Source: Pseudomonadota bacterium (GTDB lineage Bacteria; Pseudomonadota; Alphaproteobacteria; Geminicoccales; Geminicoccaceae). Taken from it: 64,000 bases of DNA. Position numbers and translations under genes: made by a program. Each line of letters starts with the position of its first letter. Positions within the stretch are counted from its first letter, which is position 1. Positions 17,005 through 36,149 of this stretch are shown here, in pieces. The notes under the pieces were generated by a model. That model was not told the DNA's origin, ran no database searches, and saw only the letters and a list, made by a program, of their open reading frames with translations. Where the stretch lies: positions 23,430 to 87,429 of the forward strand of contig JAUQQO010000040.1 of assembly GCA_030549795.1 (NCBI GenBank), read 5' to 3'.

Positions 17005-17463
17005 TTAGGTTGAGTGCGCCTTTTGAGCCCCAAACGCGGTTTCCATGACCTCCAGTTTGGCGAGCTCGACAGCGACTCGAACCGCGATCTCGCCCAATAC
17101 CGCTTCAAGACCAGGTTCCTGGCGCTGGTGTTCGAACTCGGCCGCGCCGCGGGCGAGCGCAGAGACGACACTCTTGGGGATTTCACCGGCGAGCAAGCCT
17201 AAGCGCAGCTCTTCGAGCAGATCGAGGAGCAACGCTCCCCGCTGCAAGGCGCGTCGCCGTCGATCCCCCGCTTCATCCACGCGTTGAAGGGCCAGAAGTG
17301 CGTCGATCGACCCGACGCCGGCAGCCGGTTGGGAAATGCCGCGCATCGCCGCTGCGCTCTCTCGGCGCGCGGCTTCGAGTTCTCGCCCCCATTCCGGTCC
17401 GCCGCGGGCGAGGGGGCGATGAGGGACCGCCGAAACTCCCATCGCGAAGGCCTCGATGCGCAT
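17005..17463 (-). CDS. fliX: FliX, class II flagellar assembly regulator
   Basis: A 152-residue protein matching FliX of Caulobacter and relatives: a short N-terminus starting MRIEA, a low-complexity middle, then the conserved helical core with SIDALLALQ, RRRALQRGALLLDLLEELRL and a C-terminal GLEAVLGEIAVRVAVELAKLE. FliX works with the sigma54 activator FlbD to couple completion of early flagellar structures to transcription of later genes. The frame is open to 17613, but the ATG at 17463 is the natural start. It is divergent from flgI, the same arrangement as in Caulobacter, and a perfect CtrA box sits about 50 bases upstream. Confidence 0.88.
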   Translation of the reverse strand: MRIEAFAMGVSAVPHRPLARGGPEWGRELEAARRESAAAMRGISQPAAGVGSIDALLALQRVDEAGDRRRRALQRGALLLDLLEELRLGLLAGEIPKSVVSALARGAAEFEHQRQEPGLEAVLGEIAVRVAVELAKLEVMETAFGAQKAHST

Positions 17464-17510
17464 CCGACCGACTCCCGCATGCGAAGCACCGCGATGATGG
17501 CCAAGAAAAG

Positions 17511-17525
17511 TTAAAGAACTCTTAA
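17511..17525. promoter_or_regulatory. CtrA-binding box upstream of fliX
   Basis: The 15 bases read TTAA, seven bases, TTAA, an exact match to the full CtrA consensus. It lies 48-62 bases upstream of the fliX ATG, in an AT-rich patch of an otherwise GC-rich region. In Caulobacter fliX is a class II gene driven by CtrA, so position and function agree. The match is seen directly; binding is inferred. Confidence 0.75.
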
Positions 17526-17559
17526 AGGTCTTGGAGAGAGCGGCAGTTGTTGCCCGAGT

Positions 17560-17574
17560 CGGCAGGATTTGCCG
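17560..17574. promoter_or_regulatory. Enhancer-like inverted repeat (possible FlbD site)
   Basis: CGGCA, five bases, TGCCG form a perfect inverted repeat. Its centre lies about 80 bases upstream of the start point predicted from the sigma54 site at 17621, a usual distance for an enhancer. It resembles the ftr elements bound by FlbD in Caulobacter, as far as I recall that consensus. An overlapping TGCC-N6-GGCA repeat lies at 17551-17564, with a GAGTC (GANTC) methylation site inside. Confidence 0.45.
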
Positions 17575-17620
17575 CGCAAGCGATTGCAGTGACGTCCGAA
17601 GATCCGCTCGCACCGTGCTC

Positions 17621-17637
17621 TGGCACGAAGATCGCTT
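17621..17637 (+). promoter_or_regulatory. Sigma54 (-24/-12) promoter of flgI
   Basis: The sequence TGGCACGAAGATCGCTT fits the sigma54 consensus TGGCAC-N5-TTGC with one mismatch and exact GG-to-GC spacing. Transcription would begin near 17647, giving a leader of about 30 bases before the flgI GTG. Late (class III) flagellar genes including flgI are sigma54-dependent in Caulobacter, which supports the call. Confidence 0.75.
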
Positions 17638-17676
17638 TTCAGGGAGGCGAGAGAGCTGTCGCGATGGGAGTGGATC

Positions 17677-18828
17677 GTGTCGCTTCGCGTGATCGCAGCA
17701 CGAAGCCCGGCTCGGCGCTACCGCGGGCTGCTCGCCCTCACCCTCGGGTTCGCCTTTTTGGGGGCGTCGATCAGCCCTGCGCGTCCGGCCTCACGCATCA
17801 AGGACATCGCCGATTTCGAAGGCGTGCGCGAGAACGTGCTCATCGGCTACGGGCTTGTGGTGGGGCTCAACGGAACCGGCGATACGCTGCGCAACGCCGT
17901 CTTCACGCAAGAGAGCCTGATTGCGATGCTCGAGCGGCTCGGCGTGAGCACGCGCGGGGCCAATTTGAACACGAAGAACGTCGCCGCCGTGATGGTGACG
18001 GCGTCGCTCCCACCCTTTGCCCGCCAGGGAAGCAGGATCGATGTTGCCGTCAATGCCCTCGGCGACGCCAAGTCGCTCGTAGGCGGGACCCTCCTTGCGA
18101 CCCCGCTTTTAGGTGCCGATGGCGAGGTCTACGCGGTTGCCCAGGGCGCGCTCGCGGTAGGTGGGTTCGAGGCGAAGGGAGCCGCCCAGTCGGTCATTCG
18201 CAACGTTCCCACGAGCGCGCGCATTCCGGCTGGCGCGATCGTCGAACGAGAAGTTCCCTTCGCCCTCGATTCCCTGCCCGAACTCAGGCTCGCTCTGCGC
18301 AATCCCGACTTCACGACCGCGCAGCGGATCGTCGCCGCGATCAACGGTCGGCTTTCGGGGATCGGTGCGCGCGCGACCGACCCCGCTACCGTGCGCGTGC
18401 CGATCCCCGCCAGCTATCGCGGTCAAGTGGCTCGGCTCATCAGCGAGATCGAGCAGCTGCCGGTGCAGCCCGACAGTCCCGCCCGCATCGTCATCGATGA
18501 GAGCTCGGGCGTCATCGTGATGGGCGACAAGGTGCGGATCAGCCGGGTCGCGGTCGCGCAGGGTAACCTCACGGTTCGGGTGACCGAAACCCCGCAAGTG
18601 AGCCAGCCTGGGCCACTCTCGGGCGGAGAAACGGTCGTAGTGCCGCGTACCAACGTCGAGATCGACGATCAGCGCGAGCGCAGGATGGTGGTGCTCGAAG
18701 AAGGGGCGACGCTCGATGCCCTGGTCGATGGTCTCAACGCCTTAGGCGTAGGTCCGCGCGACATGATCGCGATCATCCAGGCGATCAAAGCCGCTGGGGC
18801 GCTGCAAGCCGAGATCGAGGTGATGTGA
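17677..18828 (+). CDS. flgI: Flagellar P-ring protein FlgI
   Basis: A 383-residue secreted protein that forms the ring around the flagellar rod in the peptidoglycan layer. A signal peptide covers about residues 1-39 (cleavage near ARPAS). The mature start SRIKDIADFEGVRENVLIGY and the later GLVVGLNGTGD, RNVPTSARIPAGAIVERE and the C-terminal ALGVGPRDMIAIIQAIKAAG are hallmark FlgI stretches. The start is GTG. It leads the plus-strand operon flgI-flgJ-flgN-flgK-flgL-fliW, and its stop overlaps the next start (TGATG). Confidence 0.97.
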   Translation: MSLRVIAARSPARRYRGLLALTLGFAFLGASISPARPASRIKDIADFEGVRENVLIGYGLVVGLNGTGDTLRNAVFTQESLIAMLERLGVSTRGANLNTKNVAAVMVTASLPPFARQGSRIDVAVNALGDAKSLVGGTLLATPLLGADGEVYAVAQGALAVGGFEAKGAAQSVIRNVPTSARIPAGAIVEREVPFALDSLPELRLALRNPDFTTAQRIVAAINGRLSGIGARATDPATVRVPIPASYRGQVARLISEIEQLPVQPDSPARIVIDESSGVIVMGDKVRISRVAVAQGNLTVRVTETPQVSQPGPLSGGETVVVPRTNVEIDDQRERRMVVLEEGATLDALVDGLNALGVGPRDMIAIIQAIKAAGALQAEIEVM

Positions 18829-19547: not shown

Positions 19548-21422
19548 ATGAGCCTCGGAAACACGCTCCAGATCGCGGTCAGTGGGTTGCAGACGGCCCA
19601 GCGCGCGCTCCAGGTGACCGCGAACAACCTCGCCAACGCCACCTCCCCGGGCTACAGCCGCAAGCTGCACACCCAGGAAGCGCTCGTCCTGGACGGGCAG
19701 GGACGGGGAGCGCGTGCGCTCGCCGAGCAGCGGGTGGTCGACGCTTTTCTGACTGCCGAGCTCAGGGCCAGGGACGGGCAGTTGGGCCGCAGCGCTACGG
19801 TCCAAGAGTTCGCCGATCGGGCGCAAAGCCTCCTCTTTGGCGTGCCTGGCGACGAGCGGTCGGGACTGTTGGGCCCACTCAATGAGCTCGCGCGCGCGCT
19901 CGAATCGCTCGCCAACGATCCCGATCAGCCGGGGCTTCGGGCTGCGGTCGTGGGCGCAGCCGACGCCTTCGCGCGCGCGGTGCGCCGCGGCGCTGAGGCC
20001 ATCCAGGCCCTGCGGCAGGAGGCCGACCGAAGAATTGGCGCGCTCGTCGAGCGCATCAACGCCGATCTCGCCACATTGCGCGAGATCGATCGAACCATCC
20101 GTGAGCGGGGTGAGACCCCGGAACTCGCTGATCAGCGCGATCGGACCCTGCGCGAACTCGCCCGCAAGCTCGACATCTCGACCTATCGTCGCGACGACGG
20201 GCAGCTCGGAGTTCTCCTTCGCGGCGGTCAGGGGCTTTTTGAAGGGCGACCGCGCGTGCTCGTCTACGATCCGGCACCGGTTGTCGACGCCGGTACGATC
20301 TTCGGTCCGATCTCACTCTATGCCGCCTCTGACATCGATCCGGCGACCGGTAAGCCGCTAGCCGGAGCGCAGGGGGAGGTGGTGGTCACAGGCGGACTGC
20401 GCGCTGAGCTTCCGCCCGAGCTGCGGACGGGCACGCCGGCCGACGAGGCGCTGATCGTGCGCTCTCCGCTGCGCTCAGGTGAGCTCCAAGGGCTGCTCGA
20501 AGTACGCGACCGGCTGCTGCCCGAGCTCGCCGATCAACTGGACGAGCTCGCGCGCATCGCTGCCTTCGCCGTGAACGCGGCGCACAACGGAGCCGTCGCC
20601 TGGCCGCCGCTGTCGACGCTTGTCGGTACTCGCAGCGAGGACGGGACTTTCGACGCTGCCACCCGTTCCGGCACGGCCTGGCTCGCCGTGGTGGATCGTG
20701 CCACCGGCACCGTCGCGCACACGATCGCGATCGACGTGACGGCCGATTTCGCGACCCTCGTCGCCGATCTCGACACGGCCCTTACGGGTTACGGCAATGC
20801 CACCGTCGACGCCCAAGGGCGGCTCGCGCTTTCCCTCTCTTCCGGCTTTGGGCTCGCACTTTCGGAAGGCGATAGCGCGATTATCGTCACCGATGCTCTT
20901 GGGCACAGTTGGGCCTATGGCTTCTCGCACTACTTCGGCCTCAACGATCTTTTCGTGAGCGAGGCCGGTCGGCCAAGTCTCCTCTCGGTGCACCAAACCC
21001 TGCGCAGCGATCCCGCGCGCCTTGCAACCGCCAAGCTCGACGTCGTACCGGGCCCGCCGCCTTCGGCGGTGCTCGGGGGGCCCGGTGATCCCCGTGGCGT
21101 GCAGGCGTTGGCCGCGGCCTTTCAACGCGAGATCGACACCGTACCGCGTGGCCGGCTTTCAACCGTGCGCGCTACCCTCGGCGGTTACGCAGCCGACTTG
21201 GTCGCCACACACGCAGCCACCACACGCGACGCGGAGCGCGCGGTCGAAACCGATCGGGCGCTGGTTAGCGAGCTCGAGACGCGCTGGTCGGCGGTCTCGG
21301 GAGTAAACGCCGACGAGGAATTGTCACGCTTGGTTCTCTACCAACAGGCCTACACCGTCGCGGCGCGCATCGTGCAGATCACCGATCGGTTGTTCGACGA
21401 GCTGTTGGCGATCGCGCGTTGA
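19548..21422 (+). CDS. flgK: Flagellar hook-associated protein 1 (FlgK)
   Basis: A 624-residue junction protein between hook and filament. The N-terminal rod/hook motif is clear (LQIAVSGLQTAQRALQVTANNLANATSPGYSRK) [shown in parts: SGLQTAQRAL, NNLANATSPGYSRK], and the C-terminus has the matching SGVNADEELSRLVLYQQAYTV heptad region. The middle is variable. It is slightly longer than many alphaproteobacterial FlgK proteins. It follows flgN by 10 bases and precedes flgL by 13, consistent with one operon. Confidence 0.95.
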   Translation: MSLGNTLQIAVSGLQTAQRALQVTANNLANATSPGYSRKLHTQEALVLDGQGRGARALAEQRVVDAFLTAELRARDGQLGRSATVQEFADRAQSLLFGVPGDERSGLLGPLNELARALESLANDPDQPGLRAAVVGAADAFARAVRRGAEAIQALRQEADRRIGALVERINADLATLREIDRTIRERGETPELADQRDRTLRELARKLDISTYRRDDGQLGVLLRGGQGLFEGRPRVLVYDPAPVVDAGTIFGPISLYAASDIDPATGKPLAGAQGEVVVTGGLRAELPPELRTGTPADEALIVRSPLRSGELQGLLEVRDRLLPELADQLDELARIAAFAVNAAHNGAVAWPPLSTLVGTRSEDGTFDAATRSGTAWLAVVDRATGTVAHTIAIDVTADFATLVADLDTALTGYGNATVDAQGRLALSLSSGFGLALSEGDSAIIVTDALGHSWAYGFSHYFGLNDLFVSEAGRPSLLSVHQTLRSDPARLATAKLDVVPGPPPSAVLGGPGDPRGVQALAAAFQREIDTVPRGRLSTVRATLGGYAADLVATHAATTRDAERAVETDRALVSELETRWSAVSGVNADEELSRLVLYQQAYTVAARIVQITDRLFDELLAIAR

Positions 21423-21435
21423 GGGAGATTCGGCG

Positions 21436-22335
21436 ATGATCGAACGTATCGGTGACCTCGGCCAAAACGATCGGCTCGTCGCGCTCTTGCGCCAGACACA
21501 AATGCGCGTGCGCGAGGCACAAGTCGCAGTGGCGAGCGGGCATCGTACCGAGCGGTGGGATCGTCTCGGCGACCGCGCCGGGATGCTCGCTACGATCCGC
21601 GAGCAGCGCGGCCTCACCGCCAGCTTTCTGGCCGAGAACGACGAGCTGCGCGCGCGTTTGGGCGTGATGGATGGGACACTCGGCGCGATCGGCGAAATCG
21701 CCGAACGGCTGCGGACCCTTCTCGTCGCCCGCCTGTCGGACGCCACCGGGCCGTCTGTGCCGCTCGATGCCGAGGTGGACGCCATGGCGGCTGAAGTCGA
21801 GGGTCTGCTCAACCGGCAGCTCGATGGGGCCTATCTGTTCGCGGGCAGCCGCAGCGATCGGTCGCCCGTGGCGCTCCCCGATCCTCTGCCCACGACCGTC
21901 GACGCGTCGCTCTACTACCGAGGCGACGAAGTAGTGCTGGCTTTTAGAGCCGATGTCGATGTCACGATCGCTTACGGGGTGCGCGCCTCCGCTGAACCCT
22001 TCGCCCAGCTGGTCGCGGCGCTCGGTCAAGCGCGGGCCGCGCACGCTTCCAACGATCGCGCGGGGCTCGAAGCCGCGCTTATGCTTGTGCAAAGGGCGGT
22101 CGCGGGGATCGCTGAGTTGCGCGGGCAGGTGGGGGCCGTCGGCAATCGGCTCGAGGCGATCGCCGAAAGCCAGCGCGCAGCACTGGTACAGCTCGACAAT
22201 CTCATCTCCGAGATCGTCGATACCGATGTTGCCGAGACGATGAGCCGGCTCGCGCGCGACCAAGCCACGCTCGAGGCGAGCTATCTCGTTATCGCCCGTC
22301 TCAATCAGCTCTCCCTCGCCGATTACCTGCGCTGA
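21436..22335 (+). CDS. flgL: Flagellar hook-associated protein 3 (FlgL)
   Basis: A 299-residue flagellin-like protein. The N-terminal helix contains the flagellin-type AQVAVASGHRTERWDRL, and the C-terminus ends in the paired helix (MSRLARDQATLEASYLVIARL, here cited as the segment MSRLARDQATLEAS onward). FlgL sits distal to FlgK and seeds filament growth. Length and position directly after flgK separate it from flagellin itself. The ATG is preceded by a GGGAGA ribosome site. Confidence 0.92.
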   Translation: MIERIGDLGQNDRLVALLRQTQMRVREAQVAVASGHRTERWDRLGDRAGMLATIREQRGLTASFLAENDELRARLGVMDGTLGAIGEIAERLRTLLVARLSDATGPSVPLDAEVDAMAAEVEGLLNRQLDGAYLFAGSRSDRSPVALPDPLPTTVDASLYYRGDEVVLAFRADVDVTIAYGVRASAEPFAQLVAALGQARAAHASNDRAGLEAALMLVQRAVAGIAELRGQVGAVGNRLEAIAESQRAALVQLDNLISEIVDTDVAETMSRLARDQATLEASYLVIARLNQLSLADYLR

Positions 22336-22403: not shown

Positions 22404-22868
22404 ATGCAAACGGAGCTCTCGTCCGCCTCGGCCCCAGTCAAGCCAAGGAGCTCGGTCGCCGCGGCTTGGCTGGAATGCGGGCCGATCCATCTGCCCTACG
22501 GCCTACCTGGCTTCGCCGATCTGCGCGATTGCCACTTGGAGCCTTTGGGAGGATTTTCTGAAGACTTTTTCCTCTTGCGCGCTCGAAAGCCTGAAGGACC
22601 GCGCTTCATACTGGCGCCGCTGCGCGATCCCGGGCAACTCTTCTCTTCCGAAACCATGGGCGCGCTTTTGATGGCCTGTGGTCTGCCGGAAGCGGCGCTG
22701 CGCGTTTTGCTCGTCGTGACCTTGGTGCCCGCTGGGCATGGGCTCGAAGCTTTGGTCAACTTACGCGCTCCGCTCGTGGTCGATGTGCGGTCGCGTACAG
22801 CGCGCCAGATCGTGCTGCCCGATCCGAAGCTGCCTTTGCGCTGCCCGCTCGGGCGTCGCACGACCTGA
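22404..22868 (+). CDS. fliW: FliW flagellar assembly factor
   Basis: A 154-residue FliW-type protein. The conserved opening IHLPYGLPGFADL, the FILAPLRDP segment and the C-terminal VNLRAPLVVDVRSRTARQIVLPD match the family well. In other bacteria FliW binds flagellin and sequesters the RNA-binding regulator CsrA, so that filament synthesis follows export. No csrA, flaF or flbT is visible in the window. It lies 68 bases after flgL and probably closes the operon. An N-terminal extension of about 28 residues precedes the usual family start. Confidence 0.88.
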   Translation: MQTELSSASAPVKPRSSVAAAWLECGPIHLPYGLPGFADLRDCHLEPLGGFSEDFFLLRARKPEGPRFILAPLRDPGQLFSSETMGALLMACGLPEAALRVLLVVTLVPAGHGLEALVNLRAPLVVDVRSRTARQIVLPDPKLPLRCPLGRRTT

Positions 22869-33629: not shown

Positions 33630-34339
33630 AGCTCTGAACCTTCCGGCTGCCAGGTCGCGATGCGCCGTTCGATCTCGGCACGATCGAAGATCCCCGGATC
33701 GCGCTCGTGCTGTGGGAAGATGCTCGCCAAGGCCAAAAAGCGTTCTCTTGCGACCCGGTAGAGCCGCTCCAGCTCGTCTAAAGGCTCGGGGTGGTCATCG
33801 ACGCGCAGCGAAAGCCGAGGCCAGGGCTCACGCCCGTGGACGAGAATGGCAGCGGATTGTTTACCGCGCCGGTCGCCTCCTGCTGCTTCTCCCGCTCGCA
33901 TCGCGGCGATCAGCCGCGCAACCAGCGGCAGATCCTGCCGAGCCAGCCAGGTGGACAAGGTCGCTTCGAGCACCTGCGGGCCGGCGAGCAGGTTGCCGGC
34001 GAGCGAGACGTCGCGGTCAGCGAGATGGCCGCACCACTCGATACACGCGGCCCCCGTCCAGCGCGCCGCGCGACCGTCGGCATCCATAAGATGAAGCTGG
34101 CGGTGTTCGCGGCCGGGATCGAGGCCGACGAGGGTCGCTACCGCCATCTCGGGGGCTACGCCTTCAGCCAAAAGGCGCAATCCGCGAGGTCCATAGGTCG
34201 GGTTGACGAGCGCCTGGGTGGCCACCGCCCCGTGCGGGGAGGCGTACGGGACGAGGGCGCCGACCGCGAAGAAGCGCGAGGCTACAGCGATCCCGAAAAG
34301 ACCCGTGCGCTGATCGCGGACGATGATCGACCAAGTCAT
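33626..34339 (-). CDS. DUF1028 protein (predicted Ntn-hydrolase fold)
   Basis: A 237-residue protein of the DUF1028 family. The N-terminus TWSIIVRDQRTGLFGIAVASRFFAVG [first part TWSIIVRDQRTGLFGIAV] and the following GAVATQALVNPTYGPRGLRLL are diagnostic. As far as I recall, a solved DUF1028 structure has an Ntn-hydrolase-like fold; the enzymatic reaction is unknown. The C-terminal third contains a peptidoglycan-like short domain found in some members (LRVDDHPEPLDELERLYRV). It sits 13 bases after the gamma-glutamyltransferase-like gene, a frequent association, and overlaps the Opg gene. Confidence 0.85.
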   Translation of the reverse strand: MTWSIIVRDQRTGLFGIAVASRFFAVGALVPYASPHGAVATQALVNPTYGPRGLRLLAEGVAPEMAVATLVGLDPGREHRQLHLMDADGRAARWTGAACIEWCGHLADRDVSLAGNLLAGPQVLEATLSTWLARQDLPLVARLIAAMRAGEAAGGDRRGKQSAAILVHGREPWPRLSLRVDDHPEPLDELERLYRVARERFLALASIFPQHERDPGIFDRAEIERRIATWQPEGSEL

Positions 34340-34352
34340 GGCACGAGCCTCG

Positions 34353-36149
34353 CTAGCGCCCGATGGCGTAGGCCTGCATCAGTCGCGCCGTAGCGGCAGC
34401 GTGAAGAAAAGAGCCTTTGCGCGCGACCGCGGTGAGACGCCCGATCGACCAGCCGTCGCGAATATCCACTCGGTGCCCGCGGCGCGCGAGCTCTTCGAGC
34501 GTGGTATAGGGGAAACGCTCCTCGATCGCGAGCGCGCGCGGCCGCGCCCGGCGGGGATAGAACGAGGAGGGCCAGTGTTCGGCGAAAAACAGGGGCGCGT
34601 CGATCGCCGCCTGGAGGTCGAGGCCGTGGACGAGGTGGCGCAGGAGAAAGACCAGCTGCCACTGGTCCTGCTGGTCGCCGCCGGGGGTGCCACAGGCGAG
34701 ATAGGGTTCGCCGTCTTCGAGTACGAGAGTGGGCGAGAGAGTGGTGCGCGGACGTTTGCCGGGAGCGAGCGCGTCCGGCCGCTCGCGTTCGAGGCGGAAC
34801 ATCTGACCGCGCGTGCCGAGACAAAAGCCGAGTTCGGGAATGGTGGGGCTCGACTGTAGCCAGCCGCCCGAGGGCGTAGCCGAGATCAGGTTGCCGAAAC
34901 GGTCAGCGACGTCGATGTGGCAAGTGTCGCGGCGGCCGCGGTTTTCACCGAGCGGCCCGAACGTCGGCTCCGAACCGGCGAAGTCTGCTTCAACACAGGC
35001 CTTCTGCCAGCCGTCGACCGCGAGCTCGACCTGGCGTTCGTAGCCCGCGATGGCACCGGGTCGAAACGCGCTCGAGGCCTCAAGGCCAAGAAGCGTGCGG
35101 CGCTGGGCAGCATAAGCCGGCGACAGCAAACGGTCGAGGGGAACCGGGACGAAGGCTGGATCGCCATAGTAAGCCTCGCGATCGGCCATCGCGAGCTTGA
35201 GCGCCTCAACGACCAGGTGCACGAACTCGGGCCCCTCGTCGGCGGCGGTTTCCACGCCGCTGCCCTCCAGGATGGCAAGGGCCTGCAGGAGCACCGGACC
35301 CTGCCCCCAGGGGCCGGTCTTGCACACCCGCCAGCGGCCGAAGTCGAGACTCACCGGTTCTTCGAAACATGCCGACCAGGCGGCAAGATCGGAGCCGCGC
35401 AGAAACGCGCGGTGCGGCCGGCCGAGCGCGTCCATGACTTCGGTAGAGCAGCAAAAGCGGTCGATCGCCTCGGCCACGAACCCTTCCCGCCACGCTCGCC
35501 GCGCCGCCTCGATCTGCGCCTCGCGTCCACCGCCGACTGCCTGCGCTTCGCTGAGCAAGCGCCGGTAGGTGGCGGCGAGGGTCGGGTTGCGAAACAGGGT
35601 TCCGGCAGCCGGCGGCTCGCCGTTTGGCAGCCACAGCGCGGCCGAGGTCGGCCAGTGAGCGCGGAACCAGGCTGCGCGCGCAGCGATTGTGTCAGCACAG
35701 CGCGGAAGGAGCGGATGGCCCCGCTCGGCATAGGCAATCGCGGGCTCGAGCACGGTGGCGAGATCGAGCGTGCCGTACTCGAGCAAGAGCAAGAGCCAAG
35801 CGTCGACCGCACCCGGGACGACAGCGGGCAACAGCCCATCATCGGGAATCACCTCGATGCCGAGCGCCTCGCAGGCTTCGATGGTGGCGCTCTGCGGGGC
35901 AGGGCCCTGGCCGCAGAGTACGCGCACGCGGCGCGCGCGGGCGTCCCAGAACAGAGCCGGCATGTCGCCGCCGGGGCCGTTGAGGTGGGGTTCCACCACC
36001 TGCAGCACGAAGCCGCCCGCCACTGCCGCATCGAAGGCGTTGCCACCCAGCTCGAGCATACGCATGGCAGCGGCGCTCGCGATCCAATGGGTGCTCGCTA
36101 CCACGCCGAAGGTGCCGGTGATCACCGGGCGAGTCGCAAAGCGCTCCAT
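34353..36149 (-). CDS. Gamma-glutamyltransferase-like Ntn hydrolase
   Basis: A 598-residue GGT-family protein. The large-subunit part includes ASTHWIASAAAMRMLELGGNAFDAAVA [core: MLELGGNAFDAAVA] and VEPHLNGPGGDM; the autocleavage Thr is near residue 409 (RRDTCHIDVADRFGN), followed by the small-subunit loop SATPSGGW and TLSPTLV. The family transfers or hydrolyses gamma-glutamyl groups, for example from glutathione. No signal peptide is visible, unlike periplasmic GGT, so it may be cytoplasmic and closer to the YwrD/acylase-like branch. The ATG at 36149 has GGAGGAGA seven bases upstream; the frame extends five codons further. Confidence 0.88.
   Translation of the reverse strand: MERFATRPVITGTFGVVASTHWIASAAAMRMLELGGNAFDAAVAGGFVLQVVEPHLNGPGGDMPALFWDARARRVRVLCGQGPAPQSATIEACEALGIEVIPDDGLLPAVVPGAVDAWLLLLLEYGTLDLATVLEPAIAYAERGHPLLPRCADTIAARAAWFRAHWPTSAALWLPNGEPPAAGTLFRNPTLAATYRRLLSEAQAVGGGREAQIEAARRAWREGFVAEAIDRFCCSTEVMDALGRPHRAFLRGSDLAAWSACFEEPVSLDFGRWRVCKTGPWGQGPVLLQALAILEGSGVETAADEGPEFVHLVVEALKLAMADREAYYGDPAFVPVPLDRLLSPAYAAQRRTLLGLEASSAFRPGAIAGYERQVELAVDGWQKACVEADFAGSEPTFGPLGENRGRRDTCHIDVADRFGNLISATPSGGWLQSSPTIPELGFCLGTRGQMFRLERERPDALAPGKRPRTTLSPTLVLEDGEPYLACGTPGGDQQDQWQLVFLLRHLVHGLDLQAAIDAPLFFAEHWPSSFYPRRARPRALAIEERFPYTTLEELARRGHRVDIRDGWSIGRLTAVARKGSFLHAAATARLMQAYAIGR

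Follow-up and report, generated by a model that had tools for sequence, protein, structure and literature searches.

The window analysed here, a stretch of DNA of 64,000 nucleotides taken as a whole, contains a pair of divergent flagellar genes whose start codons, an ATG at 17463 on the minus strand and a GTG at 17677 on the plus strand, are separated by 213 bases. The first of these, fliX (17005-17463, minus strand), encodes a class II flagellar assembly regulator of 152 amino acids recognized by PF10768 (E 1e-29), with matches to the NCBIfam FliX models that fall below their cut-offs. The second, flgI (17677-18828, plus strand), encodes the flagellar P-ring protein (PF02119, E 6e-142) and is followed on its 3' side, according to Pfam, by a weak Rod-binding match (flgJ-like), flgK (19548-21422, plus strand), a flgL-like gene (21436-22335, plus strand) and fliW. 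Matches to PF22638, PF00460, PF06429 and PF00700 are attributed jointly to the flgK and flgL-like genes (19548-22335).

Sites between fliX and flgI

The sequence of the 213-bp region yields the site order fliX - CtrA box - ftr - sigma54 - flgI. A preliminary description of this DNA had placed a perfect CtrA box 48-62 bases before fliX, a near-perfect sigma54 promoter before flgI and a CGGCA-N5-TGCCG repeat in the same region, and all three were recovered. The CtrA box of the fliX promoter, TTAAAGAACTCTTAA (17511-17525, minus strand), matches TTAA-N7-TTAA perfectly; full CtrA motifs are located near -35 (PMC4287350). The sigma54 promoter of flgI, TGGCACGAAGATCGCT (17621-17636, plus strand), departs from TGGCACG-N4-TTGCW once, with TCGC for TTGC, and would be expected to start transcription near 17647. 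The repeat, CGGCAGGATTTGCCG (17560-17574), is an FlbD-type ftr palindrome with perfect halves. Scanning the region added a second, ftr-like site with one mismatch, CGGCAGTTGTTGCCC (17541-17555), which the preliminary description had overlooked; it starts 19 bp before the other, which puts the two ftr starts at distances of 30 and 49 bp from the box.

Of 2000 Markov-shuffled versions of the region, none contained a perfect CtrA box or a perfect ftr palindrome, and 0.45% contained a sigma54 match at up to one mismatch. Perfect CtrA boxes number 15 in the 3.16 Mb genome, as against four for a reversed-pattern control, and none besides that at 17511-17525 was found in the window with up to one mismatch allowed. 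By itself the ftr palindrome shows no enrichment across the genome (15 matches versus 18 for the reversed control), and its meaning therefore rests on its position and conservation.

Two further candidates were set aside. A perfect ftr-like palindrome at 33926-33940 and a sigma54-like site at 34339-34354, 413 bp apart, are probably a chance pairing. An attempt to outline a CtrA regulon on the basis of the remaining 14 perfect boxes gave 19 candidate ORFs, none of them flagellar, in stretches where the gene calls are crude; Pfam matches among ORFs near these boxes included GGDEF-EAL, Rrf2, CMAS, COX2-like and Amidohydro_2, among others.

Regulator genes and their distribution

All three regulators whose absence would have weighed against a Caulobacter-type reading are encoded in the genome. 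CtrA shares 63% identity with its Caulobacter counterpart and scores 377 bits against NF045991, above the cut-off of 350. The FlbD orthologue matches NF050807 over its full length with 689 bits, just below the curated cut-off of 750, and its gene sits in a fliF-fliG-(fliH-like)-fliN-flbD-flhA run. RpoN is present in one copy.

A DUF1153 protein, a family which we take to be that of SciP, is encoded upstream of fliF. Its gene (L160:4325-4618, minus strand; contig C56 at about 24.3-24.6 kb) lies between flgE and fliF and is flanked on both sides by CtrA boxes with one mismatch, that between it and fliF reading TTAACGCAGTTTTTA. The order sampled here comprises one family and 31 genomes, among which DUF1153 was found in 26 and FliX in 24.

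Two side observations concern other flagellar genes. A gene for an FlhF-like, SRP54-type GTPase (L159:15903-16832, minus strand) adjoins flhA; alphaproteobacterial polar flagellates of the Caulobacter type have been grouped as lacking FlhF/FlhG (PMC7064773). In the window, fliW (22404-22868, plus strand) comes after flgL. Of the order's 31 genomes, 27 have FliW and just one has FlbT, and the window's own genome also encodes CsrA; the FlbT-based flagellin control of Caulobacter may have been replaced by FliW-CsrA in this order.

Conservation and variation of the region

Loci from the family were joined with 80 named loci from other Alphaproteobacteria, and flgI and fliX were located in them by tblastn. 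Five loci cut by contig ends were uninformative for the pairing. Of the 99 loci that were informative, drawn from across Alphaproteobacteria with Caulobacter and Bradyrhizobium among them, 97 have the divergent fliX/flgI pair. At 95 loci, the window's own among them, tblastn placed flgI divergent to and upstream of fliX; in two members of the family (L056 and L060) flgI occupies the divergent position and fliX is too diverged for tblastn. The pair is not universal: in a single genus of the family, g5, both L058 and L059 have FliX, but the flank fetched around it contains no flgI.

The individual sites are conserved well above expectation from shuffled sequence. With at most one mismatch, a CtrA box was found at 85 of the 95 loci (2.6 in shuffles) and an ftr site at 92 (5.5 in shuffles), and a sigma54 site with at most two mismatches at 93 (4.0 in shuffles), although these loci are mostly Bradyrhizobium relatives and not independent. 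All three sites were detected at 82 of the 95, and 77 of those keep the order fliX - CtrA - ftr - sigma54 - flgI; the five exceptions are apparently cases in which the scan took its best match from another part of the stretch. The same mismatch limits, applied to the 18 loci of the window's family, gave a CtrA box at 15, with none found at the other three, ftr at all 18 and sigma54 at 16. The sites are thus kept both in the family and far beyond it.

Variation is found in the spacing and number of ftr sites. Measured between the starts of the ftr and CtrA sites, the distance is 20 for 61 of the 68 sites outside the family, the others having 18-19. Family members instead show two clusters of distances, 28-31 and 49-51, equivalent to about one and three further helical turns. 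The nearer ftr is some 15 bp clear of the CtrA box in the family, while the two nearly abut in Bradyrhizobium and Caulobacter. Ten of the 18 family loci have a second ftr (at most one mismatch), spaced 19-23 bp from the other, and none of 74 other loci does. Both the tandem ftr and the shifted spacing look specific to the lineage of the window's family.

A site for integration host factor (IHF), of the sort common in the Bradyrhizobium/Caulobacter loci, is not recognizable in the window, a difference that likewise looks lineage-specific. Caulobacter class III/IV transcription requires IHF (PMC3096577), and an IHF-like site (WATCAANNNNTTR, at most one mismatch) was present in the 70 bp before sigma54 at 40 of 77 outside loci, as against about three in shuffles, a signal that rests largely on Bradyrhizobium relatives. 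Among loci of the window's genus none of 6 had it, and among those of the family's other genera 1 of 10 did, in a comparison where spacer G+C also differs (0.74 in the genus versus 0.53 outside). The best match between ftr and sigma54 in the window has three mismatches, no better than shuffles; the consensus is loose, so the lack of a match need not mean that the site is lacking. These patterns could be read as a rebuilding of the family's sigma54 enhancer, in which tandem FlbD sites about 20 bp apart would replace a single site plus IHF bending, and the enhancer would have moved away from the CtrA box by whole helical turns, from 20 bp to 30 and 50 bp, with FlbD still facing CtrA and able to couple fliX repression to flgI activation. 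We consider this scenario to be rather unlikely.

Interpretation and relation to known systems

In Caulobacter, class II flagellar genes are activated by CtrA, FlbD is inhibited or stimulated by FliX according to the state of basal-body assembly, and FlbD acts through ftr sites to repress class II and activate class III promoters (PMC3096577, PMC3930126). The region described here is very probably a standard alphaproteobacterial fliX/flgI divergent class II/class III control region, the regulatory steps within it being ones that we infer. Both the regulator genes in the genome and the conserved sites lend good support to the earlier proposal of a CtrA-to-sigma54 control region of Caulobacter type. 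In the proposed sequence of events, CtrA would activate fliX as a class II gene; once the MS-ring, switch and export complex is built, FliX would let FlbD work, and FlbD at the tandem ftr sites would activate RpoN polymerase at flgI, which heads the class III flgI-(flgJ-like)-flgK-flgL run. Given the position of the ftr pair, immediately behind the CtrA box of fliX, FlbD may simultaneously lower fliX expression, in the way that it represses class II genes in Caulobacter. The proposal that FliX controls sigma54 activation in its own promoter region stands as a suggestion only, since it is by way of the FlbD protein that FliX acts (PMC3096577), and any feedback of FlbD on fliX is one that we infer from the positions of the sites.

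That feedback step is optional, and it is the only point of difference from an alternative which we regard as quite possible, though somewhat less than probable: that two independent promoters stand back to back, with ftr serving flgI only and FlbD having no effect on fliX. The distance from ftr to sigma54 is within enhancer range in nearly all loci, and the gap that separates the family's nearer ftr from its CtrA box, where Bradyrhizobium and Caulobacter have almost none, fits such independence. However, the tight hold on ftr-CtrA spacing, at one value in most loci outside the family and near 30 and 50 bp inside it, suggests that the two sites work together in some way along a shared helical face. 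It is far less likely that CtrA has no control of fliX here, the box being a vestige or serving some other regulator. This would accord with the few family members without a good box, and with the paucity of recognizable cell-cycle or flagellar genes near the genome's other perfect boxes, but ctrA and sciP are both present, and the box is perfect, one of just 15 in the genome, and kept within one mismatch at most family loci. That three motifs came together by chance in GC-rich DNA, a reading to which the unremarkable genome-wide frequency of the ftr palindrome might lend some colour, is negligibly probable given the lack of CtrA and ftr sites in shuffles of the region and the recurrence of the arrangement, with its sites conserved, in dozens of genomes.

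In a class II/class III control region of this kind, the CtrA cell-cycle regulator and the FliX/FlbD assembly checkpoint are linked through a single stretch of regulatory DNA that distant Alphaproteobacteria have conserved. Its natural variants, differing in ftr number, spacing and IHF site, offer a ready series for testing FlbD as activator and repressor from the same place.

Among known systems, the fla2 set of Rhodobacter sphaeroides resembles the window in having divergent flagellar promoters under CtrA, but differs in that both promoters there are driven by CtrA, without any RpoN protein (PMC6180460). Loci of Bradyrhizobium, Tardiphaga and Rhodopseudomonas (among L063-L142) share the gene pair, the site order, the CGGCA-N5-TGCCG ftr and the TCGCA form of the -12 element. 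They differ in a CtrA box that is mostly TTTA-N7-TTAA and in a single ftr 20 bp from it and, unlike the window, many carry an IHF-like site before sigma54. Another close parallel in layout is that of Caulobacter, where fliX and flgI are likewise divergent, with a CtrA box before fliX, sigma54 before flgI and ftr between them; direct comparison with the Caulobacter loci L110 and L117 gave the window's order. In the Caulobacter loci the box reads TTAACCATACTTCAA, with a lone ftr at 4-5 bp, as opposed to the perfect box and two ftr of the window, in which no IHF site is recognizable. Mohr, MacKichan and Shapiro reportedly described this arrangement in the fliX-flgI intergenic region of Caulobacter crescentus in 1998. 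The hint of novelty in the preliminary description, of a checkpoint reproduced in a different lineage, accordingly falls away, as the same region and site order already exist in Caulobacter and Bradyrhizobium loci; the arrangement is already known from Caulobacter and occurs here with modest lineage variation.
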